Shown here: piece after piece, positions 1,144 to 64,000 of the stretch
How the letters are laid out: each line of letters opens with the position of its first letter
Position numbering within the stretch: the first letter of the stretch is position 1
Origin: an uncultured Leptolyngbyaceae cyanobacterium
GTDB taxonomy: Bacteria; Cyanobacteriota; Cyanobacteriia; Leptolyngbyales; Leptolyngbyaceae
Direction of reading: 5' to 3'
Length of the DNA stretch: 64,000 nucleotides
Assembly: GCA_938023035.1 (NCBI GenBank)
Contig: CALIDI010000033.1
Coordinates: 62,001-126,000, forward strand
The notes under the pieces: generated by a model
Seen by the model: only the letters and a program-made list of their open reading frames with translations
Told to the model about the DNA's origin: nothing
Database searches by the model: none
Position numbers and translations under genes: made by a program

Positions 1144-1332
1144 AACTAGGCGATCAGCCAGGAATCTTTCCCAGCAAAATACCGTGATACATAGGTGAGC
1201 CTAAGTTAAGCGCACCTACCTAAATCGCTAAGGCAAAGCGACTCGTCCCTTAACCATTTTCAAGTTTTCTATTTTCAATCACCAGAGCAAGGCTTACTGT
1301 AGGTATGCCCTTTCGTTTTGGTTGATACAGGT

Positions 1333-1749
1333 ATGGAGCTTGAGTTTATTCCCGTAGAAGATTTTTACTTTGCGCTGACTTTAACCGTGCGTCCCCTGCT
1401 TGACCTTGATCAGCCTGGGTTAGCCGGCTATGTTCAGCATCAGCTGTCTCAACGGTATGGGCAGCCTTCTACAGTTGCAGCGGCCAGCCAAAACACTTAC
1501 AACTACGTGTTTAGGGTCAACGGAGTGGACAATAGCCCCTCTCCGCAGCTAATTCTATCTATAGCTGATTGGCAAAATAATTTGCGGATCAGCAGCGACT
1601 ATGGCTGGAGCCTCGATAAAGACCGTAAGCCCATTCGTACAGCCCGGTTTTCTGAGAGAGCCACCTTTGCTAAGCAAGTAATTGCCTACATTCAGCCGTG
1701 GCTAAGTCTACCGATCAACCTAGCAGAACACTTGGCTGAAAACGATTGA
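1333..1749 (+). CDS. Unrecognised soluble protein, about 138 residues
   Basis: The frame can be extended to a TTG at 1318, but ATG 1333 (MELEFIPVEDFYF) is the more natural start. No signal peptide or membrane span is visible. The sequence has a mix of helix- and strand-like segments (for example PQLILSIADWQNNLRIS) and ends LAEHLAEND. I do not recognise the family. It stands alone on the + strand and converges on the RRM gene. Codon use looks like that of its neighbours, with no sign of recent transfer. Confidence 0.6.
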   Translation: MELEFIPVEDFYFALTLTVRPLLDLDQPGLAGYVQHQLSQRYGQPSTVAAASQNTYNYVFRVNGVDNSPSPQLILSIADWQNNLRISSDYGWSLDKDRKPIRTARFSERATFAKQVIAYIQPWLSLPINLAEHLAEND

Positions 1750-1885
1750 GAATGGAATTGAAAGTTGTCTTACACAAATGAATAAGCTTCAAAAGCCGAT
1801 GCTACCCAAGGAGCTTGACTGGACAAACGCTACCCACGTCAGGTGATGGACTATTCGGAGCATCCGATCAGTTGCCCCTAGTGAC

Positions 1886-1909
1886 AACCTAATAACCAAC
1901 CTAATAACT
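1886..1909. repeat. 12-bp tandem duplication, 11 of 12 identical
   Basis: AACCTAATAACC at 1886-1897 is followed directly by AACCTAATAACT at 1898-1909 in the convergent intergenic space. Confidence 0.7.
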
Positions 1910-1936
1910 TCAAGTAGGCTTACCAGAATTGCAACC

Positions 1937-1959
1937 GCTGCCAGCAAAGGTCTGGCAGC
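1937..1959. terminator. Hairpin between two convergent genes
   Basis: GCTGCCAG (1937-1944) and CTGGCAGC (1952-1959) form a perfect 8-bp stem with a 7-nt loop. It lies between the 3' ends of the 1333-1749 gene and the opposing RRM gene, so it could serve both. No T-run follows on either strand. Confidence 0.4.
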
Positions 1960-2060
1960 AAGCTAAACAAGGTAAATGACTGCTAAGACGAAGGAATGGT
2001 GAAAACCGCAGAGTCTCAAAGTCAACTCGTCGCCGTTGATGTAAGCGATCAGTCGGGTAT

Positions 2061-2519
2061 CTACGGATTTGTTGTCTGGGCCGCCAATAGTTGCTTCAGC
2101 TTTTCTAACTCCTGTGCCCAACGGGGGTCAGGTTGCACGCTTTCATCCGAGGGGCTGGAAGAAGGTTTACGGCCACCTTTGTTGTTACCATTGCCCTTAC
2201 GACGGGCAGTCGCTGCTACTGGAGCCTCGCTACTGCGCTCAGCAGTGTCCTCTGCGCCGTCTTCTTTCTCCTTCTTACGCGGTTGAGCACGCTCAACCTT
2301 AAGGTTGCTCTCCTTCAGCAAAAAGCCGTTAAAACGCTCAATGACTTCATCAGCCTGCTCCTCACTTTTCACAGTAACGAAGCCAAAACCTCGACATTTA
2401 TTGGTTTTGCGGTCAGTAATAATCTTGGTAGAGACAGGGCTGACTTCTGAGAAAACAGCCTCTAACTCTTGCCGATTGAGTTCTTCAGGTAAATTGCCAA
2501 TGTAAAGACGAACGGACAT
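2061..2519 (-). CDS. RRM RNA-binding protein with long C-terminal tail (Rbp3-like)
   Basis: A single RNA-recognition motif fills residues 1-80. RNP2 is LYIGNL at residues 5-10 and RNP1 is KCRGFGFV near 41-48. The tail from about residue 82 to 152 is charged and low in complexity (KKEKEDG, RRKGNGNNKGGRK) and ends in a short helix (WAQELEKLKQLLAA). The 152-residue length and long tail match the cyanobacterial Rbp3 type (Synechocystis Slr0193), which is linked to placing photosystem mRNAs at thylakoids. The short Gly-rich type is represented separately at 36040. The start is fixed by GGAGG 10 bases upstream. That GGAGG lies inside a small inverted repeat. Confidence 0.85.
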   Translation of the reverse strand: MSVRLYIGNLPEELNRQELEAVFSEVSPVSTKIITDRKTNKCRGFGFVTVKSEEQADEVIERFNGFLLKESNLKVERAQPRKKEKEDGAEDTAERSSEAPVAATARRKGNGNNKGGRKPSSSPSDESVQPDPRWAQELEKLKQLLAAQTTNP

Positions 2520-2523
2520 GAAA

Positions 2524-2534
2524 GGAGTACCTCC
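2524..2534 (-). promoter_or_regulatory. Ribosome binding site inside a small inverted repeat
   Basis: Read on the minus strand, GGAGGTACTCC precedes the ATG. GGAG can pair with CTCC across a 3-nt loop, covering most of the Shine-Dalgarno sequence. A 4-bp stem is weak, so any regulatory effect is speculative. Confidence 0.3.
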
Positions 2535-3033
2535 AGACTGGATGAGCTAGCTCACAGATGAATTGACAGGCATTGGCTCAAACGAAACATAACAAGCCCC
2601 GAACCTACTAAAGTGACGAAGCACTATTGCTAGATTGCCAATTTCCCATGGGGTGTTGCCAAAAATCTTTTTCCAATGGCTTGCTGTTAAACGGCTTGGT
2701 TTAACTACTACACTTGAGCAACCCAGACAGAGGGTAGCTAAAAGTCGGATCATTAGCAAGAAGGGAAACAAATGGACTTTTCTGTAGATGTTTTACTAAT
2801 TTTTGATGCCATCCACTAAGGTATCATGCGAAGCGATGCCTCAACGAACCAAAGCCAGAATTCTTGCCAGGTTAGTGACTAGTCAGGAAAAGGCCGGTGA
2901 TAGGTAAAGATCCGAGATCACTTCCTCAGATTCCTGTAAGCTTTAACGCAAGTAACCTCAATTGATCATGTAAAGAAATGTAACATTAAGTCTCTCAGGA
3001 AGCAAGGCAAAATGCCCTATTCCACCTTATTTA
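2535..3033. other. Intergenic region upstream of the RRM gene, about 500 bp
   Basis: This space lies between the 3' end of trpE and the 5' end of the RRM gene, both on the minus strand, and presumably holds the RRM promoter and leader. A minus-strand open frame starting with TTG at 2771 has no ribosome site or recognisable content, and I do not call it. The left edge of a 13-bp duplication at the trpE stop lies at 3031. Confidence 0.4.
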
Positions 3034-3055
3034 TTACTGAGGATTATTACTGAGG
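3031..3055. repeat. 13-bp tandem duplication across the trpE stop codon
   Basis: TTATTACTGAGGA (3031-3043) is followed by TTATTACTGAGG (3044-3055). It covers the last codons and stop of trpE, so the C-terminal residues of TrpE have probably been altered by the duplication. Confidence 0.8.
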
Positions 3056-4590
3056 CAACGGATAGCTTCCAGCATTCCTCTGGCTTTGTTTAAGGTTTCT
3101 TCATATTCCTGCTCTGCTACCGAATCTGCTACTAGTCCTGCGCCGGCTTGGACGCTAACGGTGTGCTTGCCGTTGCCCTGGTGACGAACCACCATTGTGC
3201 GAATGGCGATCGCTGTATTCAACTGCCCTTCAAAGTCGTAGTAGCCGTAGGCTCCGGAATAAGGCCCTCGGCGGCAGGGTTCCAGTTCATGAATGATCTC
3301 CATCGCCCGAATTTTGGGTGCCCCACTGACCGTGCCAGCGGGAAAGCAGGCCTTTAAGAGATCCCAGGCAGTTTTATTAGGAGCAAGGCGGCCAATCACA
3401 TTACTAACGATGTGCATGACGTGGGAGTAACGCTCAATCAGCATGAGGTCATCGACCTGAACGCTTCCTGGTTCGCACACTCGCCCCAAGTCGTTGCGGC
3501 CCAAGTCTACCAACATGACATGTTCAGCCCGTTCTTTGGGATCCTGAAGTAAGTCTTGAGCCAGGGCCTCGTCTTCTTGAGGCGTTTGGCCGCGGCGACG
3601 GGTACCAGCGATCGGGCGAACGGTTGCTGTGTAGCTTTGATTTGTAGGGTTGCGGTCGGCTTTGACCATAACTTCAGGGCTGGAACCAATAATTTGCCAA
3701 TCGCCAAAGTGAAAATAGGCCATGTAGGGCGAAGGGTTGATCAGTCGCAGAGACCGGTATAGGGCAAAGGGGTCGCCTGCATACTCTGTCGAAAGTCTTT
3801 GAGAGATCACCACCTGAAAAATATCACCTGCCTGGATATACGCCTTTGCCTGCTCGACATGAGCGCAGAACTCTGCCCGGGTCAGGTTGCTGGTGAAGGG
3901 AATGGGTGCGGCTACCGTTGCTGTTGGAGGATTCCATTCAATTAGGCGGGCCTGCTCAGACAAGGGCGATCGCAGCTTGTTTACCAGATGGCGGACACGA
4001 TCGCAGGCTTGCTGGTAGATGGTGGGCAAATCCATACCTGGGGTGCGCAAGTCAGCATAGGCCACGACCCAAATCTTGCGTTTTACCTGATCGAAAATCA
4101 ATAGGTTATCGACTTGTAGCCATAAGCCATCAGGCAGATCGGTCTCTGTTGCTGGGTAAACCGGTACCCGTGGCTCGATCCAGCGAATGAGTTCATAGCC
4201 CCAGAAACCAAACAAGCCGCCGATACCGGGCGGTAATTGGGGCAGTTGCAGGGGTTGATAGGCGGCCAAACAGGCGTCAAGCGCCGCAAAGGGATCGCCC
4301 TCAAATACTTGAGTAGTACCGTCCCGGTAGGTCTGCACTGTGCGATCACCCCGTGCCTCTAAAATCCACAGGGGGTCACAACCCAATAGGCTATAGCGCC
4401 CAATTTTTTCACCCCCTTCTACCGACTCCAGTAAGAAACTGTAGGGCTGGCCAGCACAAACGCGATACCAGGCAGATACGGGTGTATCGAGATCTGCCAC
4501 CCATTCTTGAAAAATTGGGACAAAGTTTTTTTGGACGCTTAGAGCATCTTGGGCCAGAGCTTCAAATTGGGAGAAGTCAGGAAAAATCAT
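3034..4590 (-). CDS. trpE: Anthranilate synthase component I
   Basis: TrpE makes anthranilate from chorismate and ammonia, the first committed step of tryptophan synthesis. The ATG giving MIFPDFSQFEALA at 4590 is chosen over an in-frame TTG at 4623, for a 518-residue protein. The LLES motif near the N-terminus is the tryptophan feedback site and separates TrpE from PabB. The chorismate-binding part carries PSPYMAYFHFG, IGSSPEVMV, TVRPIAGTRRRG and AGTVSGAPKIRAMEII. No trpG or other trp gene adjoins it, which is normal for cyanobacteria where trp genes are dispersed. No leader-peptide attenuator was seen. A 13-bp duplication sits at its 3' end. Confidence 0.95.
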   Translation of the reverse strand: MIFPDFSQFEALAQDALSVQKNFVPIFQEWVADLDTPVSAWYRVCAGQPYSFLLESVEGGEKIGRYSLLGCDPLWILEARGDRTVQTYRDGTTQVFEGDPFAALDACLAAYQPLQLPQLPPGIGGLFGFWGYELIRWIEPRVPVYPATETDLPDGLWLQVDNLLIFDQVKRKIWVVAYADLRTPGMDLPTIYQQACDRVRHLVNKLRSPLSEQARLIEWNPPTATVAAPIPFTSNLTRAEFCAHVEQAKAYIQAGDIFQVVISQRLSTEYAGDPFALYRSLRLINPSPYMAYFHFGDWQIIGSSPEVMVKADRNPTNQSYTATVRPIAGTRRRGQTPQEDEALAQDLLQDPKERAEHVMLVDLGRNDLGRVCEPGSVQVDDLMLIERYSHVMHIVSNVIGRLAPNKTAWDLLKACFPAGTVSGAPKIRAMEIIHELEPCRRGPYSGAYGYYDFEGQLNTAIAIRTMVVRHQGNGKHTVSVQAGAGLVADSVAEQEYEETLNKARGMLEAIRCLSNNPQ

Positions 4591-60394: not shown

Positions 60395-63040
60395 TCAAGT
60401 AGCAGCCTTGCGCACTAAAATCACTGTACAATTACAACCGCGGGCAATCGCTTCTGGAATATTGCCGTGGATCGCCTGTTGTAATAGCCCCTCTCGACTT
60501 GCCCCTAGCAACACCACATCACACTGATTGTTATGGGCTAGTTCAATCACCGCATCAGCCACAAAGGGAGAACAGACCGGCAGAATGGTAGCAGGTAGGT
60601 GAAGCGATGCTTGCAAAATGGCGGCATCTGCCTTGAGTAGAGTCAAATCATGGCTGTCTTTAGAAGGCGAAAAAACCTGACACAGGGAAATATGGGGTGA
60701 TTGACTAAGAGAAACCAAGGCAGGCAGCAGATCCAGCGCATACCGAGAGTTTGGCCCACCAGCAATGGGCACCAGCCAGCGATTGAGCTTGAGAAATTGC
60801 AGGGTTGTTTGCACTGATCGCTGGGCGGGGGAGTCTCCCGCAATGGCCGCGAGATTTTGCCCCAGCTTCACTAAAACCACATCACAGGGAGCCTGACGAA
60901 TCAGGGTGTCCACCACATCGCCAAAAATTCGATCCGGCGTCGAAGTACTGCCCTTCCAACCCATCAGTAAGAGGTCAATATGGCGCTCTTTAATCGTATC
61001 TAACACTCCCTGCTCTACTGTATGAGCAACCCGAATCTGGGTATGCAACGGCACGTTCCAGTCTTCTGCCTGACGATTGACATGCCTCAATAGCCGCTGA
61101 CTGCGAGTCATGTTGACGGTTGTTTCTGCCGGGGGGCAATGCCGGGGCACAGGGATAATTTGCAAGCATTCAATTTCATAATGGCGTTCCTGGGCGATCG
61201 CCACTGCTAGCCGCATCAGCGCATCCATCGTCTGGGGGTTACTAATAGGCACAAGCAATCGCCCCTGTCCGCGGGCGGGCGATCGCGTTTGATAGACCAT
61301 ATAGGAGGGTTCTGGACGAGGGCCTAGGGCCTCAGCTTCCCCCCGCAGTTGCTCAGCTTCAGCTCGCAAAATATCACTGCGGGTAATGATGCCAACAATT
61401 CGTCGTTGCTCTACCACTGGCAAGCGTGACACCCGATAACGGGACAAGAGATGCAACACCTGACTGAGTGAAGCATTGGGCTGTACCGTAATCGGGCGGG
61501 CGGTCATAATTTGCTCTAGGGTTGCGGTCGCAGCAAGTTGCTGCTGGCTGGCTCGCTCTAAATCGGATTGGGTAACAATACCGACCAACTTGCCCTCAGT
61601 CAAAACGGGAAAGCCGCGATGGTGCGATCGCCCAAAGGCTTGTTTGACCTCATCCAACGTCATTGTGCTAGCAAGCGTCTCCACTTTTGTTTGCATCACA
61701 TCAGCAGCCGTCAGTCTGGCCCAGAGACCATCCTGAGAAGCAGCCTGCCCCAGATAAATGCCACGCATTTCCAGCAACCGGGTATAGAGAGAGGCCGGTG
61801 CAATTTGTTCAGCCACCAGATATGCCGTGACAGAAGCCACCATCAACGGCAGCACCAATTCAAACCGGGTAGTGAGTTCAAAAACAATCACAATCGCTGT
61901 TACGGGTACCTTGGCCACAGCACTAAAGAAAGCCCCCATGCCAGCCAAAGCATAGGTAGTCGGCACCACTCCAACCAGTGTCTGTGCCACTAACCCAACG
62001 AAATGGCCCAACGCTGCTCCCAAAATCAGACTGGGGATAAACAAACCCCCCGGAGCCTCAACCGCACAGGCAATTAGGGTCAAGCCAAACTGAACGAAAA
62101 AAGCCAACCCGGTTAGTTGCCAAGTCGCATCCCCGCTCGTGAGAAAGACTTGCAGCCGCATCGGGTCACGAAAAACCACCGGCAGCATCGCAGCGACTAG
62201 CCCCGTCATTAACCCCGCTCCCCCAAACTTGATGCTCAAGGGTAGGCGGAGATGCTGCTGAGTCCAACGCACTGAGCCTAGCACTGCCTGGTTAAACAAG
62301 GCTGCAAATACCCCGGCTAAAATGCCTAATATCAGAAAAATTGGAATTTCCTGAGGAACAAATGTGGTTGCAACAGACGCATCAATCCCTAGTTTCAAGT
62401 TGGGGCCAGCTAACAAGTGGGAAATGACGCCCCCCGTAAACGAGGCAAGAATGGCGGTTCCTAGGGTGAGGCTGGAAACATCTTGCAGAAGTTCCTCAAT
62501 CACAAACATCACCCCTGCAATCGGAGCGTCAAACCCAGCGGCCAACCCAGCCGCTGCTCCAGCGGCAATCAATTGGCGTTGATGATCGGGGGAAGCCGGT
62601 ACCCAACGACTCATCTGTGCAGCCAGAGCCGCTCCAATCTGCACCGTTGGCCCCTGCCGACCCTGGACAAACCCACTACTAAGAATCACCATCGTCGTGA
62701 TCAGCTTAACGATCGCGACCCGTAAGTTCAGCGCAATCGGCACATATCCCAGCGCCGCTTTCACCTGCGGAATGCCACTCCCGGTCGCCTCCACAGCAAC
62801 ATGCTGAATCAGGCTACCGGCGATCGCTCCCCCCGCAGCCCCCAGCAGGGGGAGTAAAATATAGATCGGCAAAGGTAGCGCTTCCTGTAAGCGCCAATTG
62901 CCCAGCAAGATCACTCCCTGCTTTAGTAAAACGGCGGCTAAAGCTGCAACGAGACCAATCACAACCGCCTCTAAGATGGCTAAGCGCTTAGGACTCAGCA
63001 GCAACCGCAGGGATTGGAAAAGATCAGCCAGTTGGATCAT
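60395..63040 (-). CDS. ClC-family chloride transporter fused to CBS pair and two USP domains
   Basis: Residues 15-420 form the ClC membrane domain. Anion-selectivity loops are GSGIPQVKAAL (Ser88), GRQGPTVQIGAA (127-138) and GGLFIPSLILG (331-341). The internal Glu equivalent to the proton glutamate is present in DAPIAGVMFVIEELL (Glu182-Glu183). The external gate residue, Glu in most ClC proteins (GREGP), is Gln129 here, encoded by CAG. A CBS pair follows (about 445-560), then two universal-stress-type domains (590-725 and 750-880), which bind nucleotides. At 881 residues this is much longer than plain ClC (~470). Its start overlaps the stop of the ppsA-like gene by four bases. Confidence 0.92.
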   Translation of the reverse strand: MIQLADLFQSLRLLLSPKRLAILEAVVIGLVAALAAVLLKQGVILLGNWRLQEALPLPIYILLPLLGAAGGAIAGSLIQHVAVEATGSGIPQVKAALGYVPIALNLRVAIVKLITTMVILSSGFVQGRQGPTVQIGAALAAQMSRWVPASPDHQRQLIAAGAAAGLAAGFDAPIAGVMFVIEELLQDVSSLTLGTAILASFTGGVISHLLAGPNLKLGIDASVATTFVPQEIPIFLILGILAGVFAALFNQAVLGSVRWTQQHLRLPLSIKFGGAGLMTGLVAAMLPVVFRDPMRLQVFLTSGDATWQLTGLAFFVQFGLTLIACAVEAPGGLFIPSLILGAALGHFVGLVAQTLVGVVPTTYALAGMGAFFSAVAKVPVTAIVIVFELTTRFELVLPLMVASVTAYLVAEQIAPASLYTRLLEMRGIYLGQAASQDGLWARLTAADVMQTKVETLASTMTLDEVKQAFGRSHHRGFPVLTEGKLVGIVTQSDLERASQQQLAATATLEQIMTARPITVQPNASLSQVLHLLSRYRVSRLPVVEQRRIVGIITRSDILRAEAEQLRGEAEALGPRPEPSYMVYQTRSPARGQGRLLVPISNPQTMDALMRLAVAIAQERHYEIECLQIIPVPRHCPPAETTVNMTRSQRLLRHVNRQAEDWNVPLHTQIRVAHTVEQGVLDTIKERHIDLLLMGWKGSTSTPDRIFGDVVDTLIRQAPCDVVLVKLGQNLAAIAGDSPAQRSVQTTLQFLKLNRWLVPIAGGPNSRYALDLLPALVSLSQSPHISLCQVFSPSKDSHDLTLLKADAAILQASLHLPATILPVCSPFVADAVIELAHNNQCDVVLLGASREGLLQQAIHGNIPEAIARGCNCTVILVRKAAT

Positions 63041-64000
63041 TTCTGAGTTGGCAGACTAACGGCTTGCTCTGCTTGCGCAATCGCCTGCTGAGTTGCAGCC
63101 AGCGCTCCGGGTTCTACAGAAATGCTCGTCACCCCCCACTGAATCAGGTGCTCAATCATCTGGGGATAGTGGGCCGTTACCTGACCGCAAATGGAACAGG
63201 GAATACCCAGTTGAGTGGCCGTTTGAGCCAACTGGGCAATCGCCCGCCGCACCGCAGAATGGCATTCGTTGTAGGCGGCAGAAAATTCTGGCTGATCGCG
63301 ATCAACCCCTAACAACAACTGGGTCAAATCATTTGTGCCAATCGAGATCCCTTGCACCCCCGCCTCAACAAAATCTGGTAACAGAAAGATTACAGAGGGC
63401 ACTTCTGCCATAATCCAGACCTGAAAATCAGGATTTTGCAATAACCCTGATTGGCCAATGATCCGATGGCAACATTGAAACTCTTCCACCGTGCGCACAA
63501 AAGGCAGCAGCAAGCGTAGATTGGTATACCCCGCCTGTTGCACCTGCATCAAAGCCCTGAGCTGCAACTGCAACAGCTCAGGTTGGTTTTGATAACGCCA
63601 GGTACCCCGCTTTCCCAGCATTGGGTTAACTTCTACCACAGGACTGCCCTGTAACCCTTGAAATTCATAGCTGCGCAGATCCATACACCGATAAAACACT
63701 GGACGCGGAGTCATCGCTGCCGCAAATACCTGGATCCGATTTGCCAGCCTCTCTGCCAGTTGCTGCTGTTGCCCTTGTCGCAGCCATTCATCTGGATGCT
63801 GCCCGTCTAGCACCGATAAGGCCAATAGCTCAGAACGCAGTAGTCCAACACCTGCAATCGGCAATTGGGCCAATTGCGGCAACGATTCTGGCTGGCTCAA
63901 GTTCACCATCAGCTGGGTCTGCAACCCAGCAGTTGAGGGAAACGGCAGGTGTGTCGGAGCAGGTGATACCGAAATCGCCGCCGCACGCAACAGTGAAACA
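63037..64000 (-). CDS. C-terminal part of a phosphoenolpyruvate synthase-like enzyme (cut by window edge)
   Basis: About 320 residues of the PEP-binding TIM-barrel domain are visible. They include GVGLLRSELLAL, RCMDLRSYEFQGLQG followed by NPMLGKRGTWRY, AEVPSVIFLLPDF, GISIGTNDLTQLLLGVDRD and the active-site Cys in CSICGQVTAHYP. The frame is open to the window edge, so the start and phosphohistidine domain lie outside. PpsA makes PEP from pyruvate and ATP. The end overlaps the ClC gene start as ATGA (63037-63040), which implies translational coupling of the two. Confidence 0.88.
   Translation of the reverse strand, partial: VSLLRAAAISVSPAPTHLPFPSTAGLQTQLMVNLSQPESLPQLAQLPIAGVGLLRSELLALSVLDGQHPDEWLRQGQQQQLAERLANRIQVFAAAMTPRPVFYRCMDLRSYEFQGLQGSPVVEVNPMLGKRGTWRYQNQPELLQLQLRALMQVQQAGYTNLRLLLPFVRTVEEFQCCHRIIGQSGLLQNPDFQVWIMAEVPSVIFLLPDFVEAGVQGISIGTNDLTQLLLGVDRDQPEFSAAYNECHSAVRRAIAQLAQTATQLGIPCSICGQVTAHYPQMIEHLIQWGVTSISVEPGALAATQQAIAQAEQAVSLPTQK

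Follow-up and report, generated by a model that had tools for sequence, protein, structure and literature searches.

Natural replacement of the external gating glutamate by glutamine or arginine in cyanobacterial CLC-CBS-USP proteins

Introduction

What does a CLC protein do when glutamine stands where the external gating glutamate is expected? The question is raised by the clc gene in a 64,000-nucleotide stretch of DNA from an uncultured Leptolyngbyaceae cyanobacterium (contig CALIDI010000033.1, positions 62,001 to 126,000; hereafter the window, whose own numbering is used below), which encodes a CLC domain followed by a CBS pair and two USP domains. A preliminary description of this gene had suggested a passive chloride pathway controlled by nucleotide-sensing CBS and USP domains. 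We find that many cyanobacteria have replaced the gate acid, usually with Gln and, in the Synechocystis branch, with Arg, and our analysis suggests that the replacement probably results in passive chloride passage. The Gln form is a natural counterpart of the famous E148Q laboratory mutation, and the exchanger-versus-channel question has so far been approached mostly by point mutants. Natural loss of the gate Glu is known from CLC-K, where Val is found instead; natural Gln and Arg gates appear to be new within the open-access literature, in which we found no report of either, subscription papers lying mostly outside that scope.

Results

The window protein carries glutamine at the external gate

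Gln129 of the window protein is aligned to E148 of CLC-ec1 (ClcA) in an ungapped stretch (phmmer against the PDB), its codon reads CAG at 62656-62654, and the best-scoring PDB sequence is that of the CLC-ec1 E148Q mutant, 1OTU (PMC7253180). The internal Glu is kept as Glu183, the equivalent of E203, next to a Glu182 that is identical to Glu202 of CLC-ec1; set against the features of a Cl−/H+ exchanger, the external gating Glu is thus absent and the internal Glu present, and GRQGP for GREGP with a retained internal proton Glu, as the preliminary description had it, is borne out. The anion-site motifs are GSGIP (residues 87-91), GRQGP (127-131), GLFIP (332-336) and SLYT (417-420), and Lys40 aligns with D54 of CLC-ec1 (phmmer). 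The gene and its gate and pore residues, equivalences being taken from the alignment, are as follows.

60395..63040, minus strand: clc gene (CLC + CBS + CBS + USP + USP), ATG start, 881 residues, Gln gate
62654..62656, minus strand: Gln129 (codon CAG), equivalent of CLC-ec1 E148, the external gate
62777..62779, minus strand: Ser88, equivalent of S107 at the central anion site; replaced by Gly in the Arg-gate clade
62759..62761, minus strand: Lys94, in the alignment column of E113, the partner of the internal Glu in CLC-ec1
62534..62536, minus strand: Gly169, equivalent of A189, the residue varying with gate state
62492..62494, minus strand: Glu183, equivalent of E203, the internal Glu
61784..61786, minus strand: Tyr419, equivalent of Y445

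The reading frame is intact, as judged by open reading frame listing and translation, and Pfam assigns Voltage_CLC to residues 69-409 (8.3e-82), with two CBS and two Usp stretches, in agreement with the domain plan first described. A PF00654 score of 275.6 bits, against a gathering score of 24.8, makes the protein a member of the CLC superfamily, and at 237.8 bits against 350 it falls below the NCBIfam ClcA equivalog cut-off. An AlphaFold2 model of the whole protein has a mean predicted local distance difference test score (pLDDT) of 89.4 and a predicted template modelling score (pTM) of 0.67; Foldseek ranks full-length CLCs first (CLC-7, CLC-3 and CLC-2), and CLC-ec1 entries reach a TM-score (template modelling score) of up to 0.88 by target length among the matches listed. 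The window genome, a 62-contig draft that is 95.9% complete, has one PF00654 match, and the Gln form is therefore the only CLC detected there.

Three gate states occur in the subfamily

Sequences were drawn from matches across the class, from 80 of those genomes searched again, from 17 named loci and from two Nostoc plasmids. The CLC domain is matched at E ≤ 1e-60 in 303 of 388 genomes of the class, and the rows fetched are a chosen, non-random part of these, so that the proportions given here hold for the rows fetched; genomes of family code f2 are among the 303, and the four read there (L221-L224) have single-domain, Glu-gate CLCs. Removal of duplicates took 230 matches to 198 distinct CLC sequences. 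The 22 rows below 44% identity were set aside and only L216 (39.8%, Arg gate, 865 residues) was taken back, to join the 176 rows at or above 44% in a subfamily of 177, window protein included. Under family code f1, 42 of 42 genomes, the window's own among them, match the protein with best E-values ≤ 3.8e-83, some as fragments.

Of these 177 distinct CLC-CBS-USP proteins, 130 have Gln at the gate, 30 have Glu and 17 have Arg. The possibility that Gln might be fixed in the subfamily is therefore rejected, Gln being the commonest of three states among the rows read, and so is the idea that the Gln form is confined to the lineage of the window, for it is present under 24 family codes (Glu, 9; Arg, 7). 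Among named carriers, Gln is found for example in Leptolyngbya sp. FACHB-36 and Pantanalinema sp. GBBB05, and Glu in Tildeniella nuda and Stenomitos rutilans. Codon use is mixed in each class, with CAG 72 and CAA 58 for Gln, GAA 18 and GAG 12 for Glu, and all six possible codons for Arg, which we read as selection on the gate residue. Since Glu and Gln members can be paired within one genus (g114) and within one family (Leptolyngbyaceae), coupling and gating could be tested in natural backgrounds.

CAG is one base from GAG and the window genome is a draft, which would suit a sequencing error or a decaying gene. We regard this as a negligible prospect, given that Gln is also the gate residue of a genus-mate whose public assembly is a separate one (L032, DVDV01000079.1; 75% identical), that 130 of 177 proteins share it with both codons, and that reading frames of at least 800 residues are found in 120/130 Gln, 29/30 Glu and 17/17 Arg rows; the error that the preliminary description had named as its refuting case is not what we find.

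All 21 remaining CLC rows outside the subfamily have a Glu gate; they comprise single-domain ClcA-like and GPEGPSVE-type proteins and the outgroups Melainabacteria, Obscuribacterales, Lactococcus and Vibrio. None of 249 genomes of Vibrio's phylum contains the Gln codon pattern, a weak negative as the Glu control pattern was found in only 9 of 50 of that set, and none of 119 genomes of Lactococcus's phylum does, a negative that is weak as well with the Glu control run on the Vibrio set only; because the pattern misses many CLCs, absence of the Gln gate from other phyla is not established.

A separate Glu-gate clade has GSGMS or GSGMT in place of GSGIP (L189, L190, L115, L119, L132, L144, L117 and L186) and includes copies on the plasmids pAzo01 of Nostoc azollae and pC052_A of Nostoc sp. 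C052. Genomes G028 and G030 hold both such a Glu-gate copy and a Gln copy.

Residues that follow the gate and residues that do not

The site most tied to Gln versus Glu, the gate aside, is residue 169 (A189 of CLC-ec1). In the 130 Gln rows it is mostly Gly (116; Ala 13, Ser 1); the 30 Glu rows never have Gly there and show Ala (19) or Ser (11), and the 17 Arg rows have Gly (16) apart from a single Ser; outgroup rows have Ala (7/7). Simulations of CLC-ec1 show a protonated, E148Q-like gate held by the backbone of A189 or, via water, by D54 (PMC7274781). Pore residues are conserved in the Gln class, with the central Ser in 128/130 rows, the Phe190 equivalent in 130/130, the Phe357 equivalent in 123/124 and the Tyr in 121/123. 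No acidic residue emerges as an evident substitute for the lost gate carboxylate in this class: at each of the 25 sites most discriminating between Gln and Glu rows, acidic residues fall short of a majority among the Gln rows. A TVQ/TIQ difference was also considered as following the gate and dropped, Val occurring in 15 and Ile in 14 of the 30 Glu rows.

The internal Glu is present in 126/130 Gln, 26/30 Glu and 17/17 Arg rows, and the position of E113, the partner of the internal Glu in CLC-ec1 (PMC7253180), is Lys in 175 of 177 rows (128/130 Gln, 30/30 Glu, 17/17 Arg). With every class retaining the internal Glu and its partner being Lys, the conservation of this Glu cannot be taken as evidence for a proton path, and a Glu-Lys pair would explain it without a proton role. 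The preliminary description had given the kept Glu too much weight, the more so as CLC-ec1 with E203 replaced by Ala still pumps H+, with degraded coupling (PMC7253180).

The gate has changed repeatedly

Two trees were built without the columns of interest, a FastTree of 186 rows with the gate and S107 columns excluded and an IQ-TREE of 119 rows, thinned by identity, with the gate, S107 and A189 columns excluded. The Arg rows form one clade in the latter (support 100/99), which needs at least nine gate changes against a shuffled mean of 41.8, and its well-supported branches alone force four changes for Gln and four for Glu; the FastTree likewise needs nine. Glu rows are nested within Gln clades, as genus g18 and G014 are in the Leptolyngbyaceae clade and as is G214, whose sister of the same genus, G273, has Gln. 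A single Glu-to-Gln event with all Glu rows held together is rejected by the approximately unbiased (AU) test (30 versus 89 rows; log-likelihood 294 lower, p 0.0008).

A three-state Markov model places Gln at the base of the subfamily and ahead of the Arg clade, with Gln-to-Glu the fastest change; the basal Gln is provisional because the early branching order is weakly supported. On this history, the E148Q state is the commonest in the cyanobacterial subfamily and would have reverted to Glu several times, and one clade would have moved on to Arg, a reversal of charge at the gate accompanied by corresponding substitutions at S107 and A189.

The arginine-gate clade includes an orthologue of sll1864

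The Arg gate occurs as GRRAP, GRRGP or GRRSP, in genomes that include Synechocystis sp. PCC 7338, Cyanobacterium aponinum PCC 10605, Euhalothece natronophila Z-M001 and Picosynechococcus sp. PCC 7003. All 17 Arg rows have Gly for the central Ser (S107), Thr172 and Arg186, and position 194 is Glu (15) or Gln (2) in these rows versus Gly in 128/130 Gln rows. Position 194 lies 11 residues past the internal Glu. An Arg codon pattern is found in 27 of 292 genomes of the phylum, all within the seven Arg families (reversed control pattern, 0), and it missed three sampled genomes that have Arg by alignment (G178, G184 and G310). The Arg protein is the sole PF00654 match in 8 of 12 Arg-gate genomes tested. 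An AlphaFold2 model of the protein from PCC 7338 has a mean pLDDT of 86.0 and a pTM of 0.65, and the second CLC of that strain matches Sll0855 (3ND0, E 3.5e-271).

In PCC 7338 (L254) the Arg-gate clc gene (1253-3940) directly adjoins, in convergent orientation, a small open reading frame (1007-1252) for 81 residues with Cys27, Trp36, Cys55, Trp65 and Cys81. These Cys and Trp features are those of NirP1, which binds nitrite reductase and whose transcript overlaps sll1864 in PCC 6803 (PMC10907346). By this nirP1 neighbour, the Arg-gate gene is identified from sequence as the sll1864 orthologue, the gene read being that of PCC 7338. Sll1864 has been listed among the candidate chloride exporters of Synechocystis, its mRNA being transiently up after salt shock (PMC8670252), and sll1864 mRNA is raised under ammonium (PMC10094980). 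A proton-coupled mechanism should not be presumed for this candidate exporter.

A proton-uncoupled uniporter as the favoured mechanism

We think it rather probable that the Gln-gate proteins are proton-uncoupled, downhill anion uniporters, with a CLC fold from which the carboxylate for proton coupling and gating has been lost. Beyond the observed sequence, alignment, distribution, gate history and co-variation, this draws on CLC-ec1, in which E148Q passes Cl− downhill at ~300/s versus 2200/s for wild type with no H+ pumping above control (PMC7253180), and on ClC-4 and ClC-5, which are uncoupled by gate-Glu replacement too (PMC4188032); the Gln proteins are expected to be uncoupled on these grounds. 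The neutral Gln side chain would sit where a protonated Glu would, and with no carboxylate competing with Cl− at the external site, Cl− could run downhill without H+ exchange. Turnover, again by extension from CLC-ec1 and other CLCs, should be that of a slow uniporter like CLC-ec1 E148Q and not of a high-conductance channel, because the central Ser and the inner-constriction Tyr are kept. The negative-inside potential would make net Cl− flow mostly outward, which would fit the export role that others have proposed for Sll1864. We further count for the uniporter the match to 1OTU with Gln129 on E148, the conservation of Gln in 130 of 177 proteins with both codons, taken as selection, the conserved pore residues of the Gln class, the prevalence of Gly at the A189 position in Gln rows, the lack of an evident acidic substitute, the Arg gate of 17 relatives, which cannot carry the Glu mechanism, and the confident CLC-like model. 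The uncoupled passive pathway of the preliminary description is thus still the best reading, with the internal Glu as weaker evidence than was implied there.

Several observations weigh against the uniporter. Gln and Glu gates recur as changes into one another in the trees and may thus differ less in function than CLC-ec1 would lead one to expect. CLC channels are typically without the internal Glu, and the window protein and most Gln rows, as counted above, keep it. The co-variation at A189 comes down to an underpowered comparison of 4 independent pairs, with 3.8 in agreement and none opposed (p 0.125), and 13 Gln rows have Ala at this position, as Glu rows do. Loss of the Phe357 equivalent (position 334) in 14 of 29 Glu rows (11 Leu, 2 Ser and 1 Thr) is left unexplained by an uncoupled uniporter.

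The interchange of Glu and Gln forms, together with the retained internal Glu, would also suit a protein that is still a Cl−/H+ exchanger, some other residue moving the proton past the Gln gate, and CLC-ec1 pumps protons, less tightly, without a titratable internal Glu, which speaks for flexible proton paths in CLCs (PMC7253180). Such an exchanger seems unlikely to us, as the neutral gate mutants of exchangers described in the cited work are uncoupled (PMC7274781, PMC4188032, PMC7253180), the internal Glu faces Lys94 with no Glu there, the Gln class offers no evident acidic substitute, and the Arg-gate clade keeps the internal Glu too. We hold it to be about as unlikely that the protein is a chloride sensor or regulator whose pore binds the anion and signals via CBS and USP without transport; four regulatory domains per subunit, the slow turnover expected without a gate carboxylate and the absence of the anion-coordinating Ser from 17/17 Arg rows would fit such a role, but pore residues stay conserved in the Gln class, and a pure sensor would leave the window genome and 8 of 12 Arg-gate genomes with no CLC transporter among those detected.

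A change of substrate, for example to nitrate, bicarbonate or another anion, would apply above all to the Arg clade, where an Arg gate goes with loss of the classical selectivity Ser and with Arg186, Thr172 and Glu or Gln at 194 in 17/17 rows, where the Synechocystis gene adjoins nirP1, whose product binds nitrite reductase, and where sll1864 mRNA responds to salt shock and ammonium (PMC8670252, PMC10094980). It appears quite improbable nonetheless, since backbone amides dominate selectivity in CLC-0 and bCLC-k, with the Ser mattering variably (PMC9726985), and since the Gln class, to which the window protein belongs, keeps the Ser in 128/130 rows. For the Arg clade taken by itself, the sequences are compatible with uniport of altered selectivity or with an anion sensor, and either may apply. 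All described CLC members have, to our knowledge, an acidic or neutral residue at the gate and no tethered cation. We tentatively suggest, with somewhat more doubt than belief, that Glu, Gln and Arg form a natural series of CLC gates in which the Arg clade would provide a proton-free route of anion export (or an anion sensor) under CBS and USP control and would often be the cell's one CLC; if so, the clade would be a third functional kind of CLC beside exchangers and Glu-gated channels.

Comparison with known CLCs

The closest known likeness is 1OTU, which shares the CLC fold, the gate Gln and the Ser107, Tyr445 and Glu203 equivalents with the window protein, but is a laboratory mutant with neither CBS nor USP domains and has Glu at E113, here Lys94; identity to CLC-ec1 entries is ~30%. 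CLC-K channels are eukaryotic, have a CBS pair, work with barttin and lack USP domains. The gate Glu is naturally absent from these kidney proteins (bovine CLC-K, human CLC-Ka and CLC-Kb), with Val in its place (PMC4188032), an aliphatic gate in contrast to the Gln or Arg of the cyanobacterial proteins, which keep the internal Glu. Sll0855 of Synechocystis (3ND0), whose orthologue shares a genome with the Arg-gate copy, represents a cyanobacterial type with a single domain and a Glu gate (FEGP) that scores above the NCBIfam ClcA cut-off. In fluoride-transporting CLC-F the central Ser is replaced by Asn; the window protein has Ser88 there.

Many of the same genomes also hold CLC proteins with GPEGPSVE and FALEV motifs, which show the opposite loss, the gate Glu being kept and the internal Glu replaced by Val or Leu in 7 rows (L155-L157, L228-L230 and L036). 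In AtCLCe the gating Glu is retained and Ser occupies the position of the proton Glu (PMC4746265), and by motif reading we take the GPEGPSVE rows to be AtCLCe-like. AtCLCe was considered as a plant counterpart of the Gln-gate protein and dropped, as its motifs fit this other cyanobacterial paralogue.

Regulatory domains and neighbouring gene

The remaining features of the window protein and its upstream neighbour are listed here.

61814..62836, minus strand: Voltage_CLC domain, residues 69-409 (Pfam)
61361..61705, minus strand: CBS pair, about residues 446-560 (Pfam, two stretches, best 508-560; start of the first CBS estimated from AlphaFold2 secondary structure)
60869..61264, minus strand: USP domain 1, residues 593-724 (Pfam)
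60410..60781, minus strand: USP domain 2, about residues 754-877 (Pfam Usp stretch; limits estimated from AlphaFold2 secondary structure)
63037..64000, minus strand: upstream gene, 3' part of an 809-residue phosphoenolpyruvate (PEP)-synthase-like protein

Nucleotide-binding USP domains have the motif G-2x-G-9x-G-(S/T). USP domain 1 reads G694-WK-G697-9x-G707 followed by Asp instead of Ser or Thr, so that the end of the motif is non-canonical; conservation of W695 rounds to 1.00 over 165 rows. CBS domains of mammalian CLCs sense adenine nucleotides (PMC7271328); nucleotide control by the CBS and USP domains of the window protein is plausible, and the CBS pair and two USP domains would probably set its activity by nucleotide or stress state.

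An operon role for the PEP-synthase-like gene was considered and dropped, since the pairing is absent from the other searched loci, in whose upstream flanks of ~0.9-5 kb tblastn gave no match to it at 1e-15. In the window, the clc start and the stop of this gene overlap by four bases (ATGA, 63037-63040).

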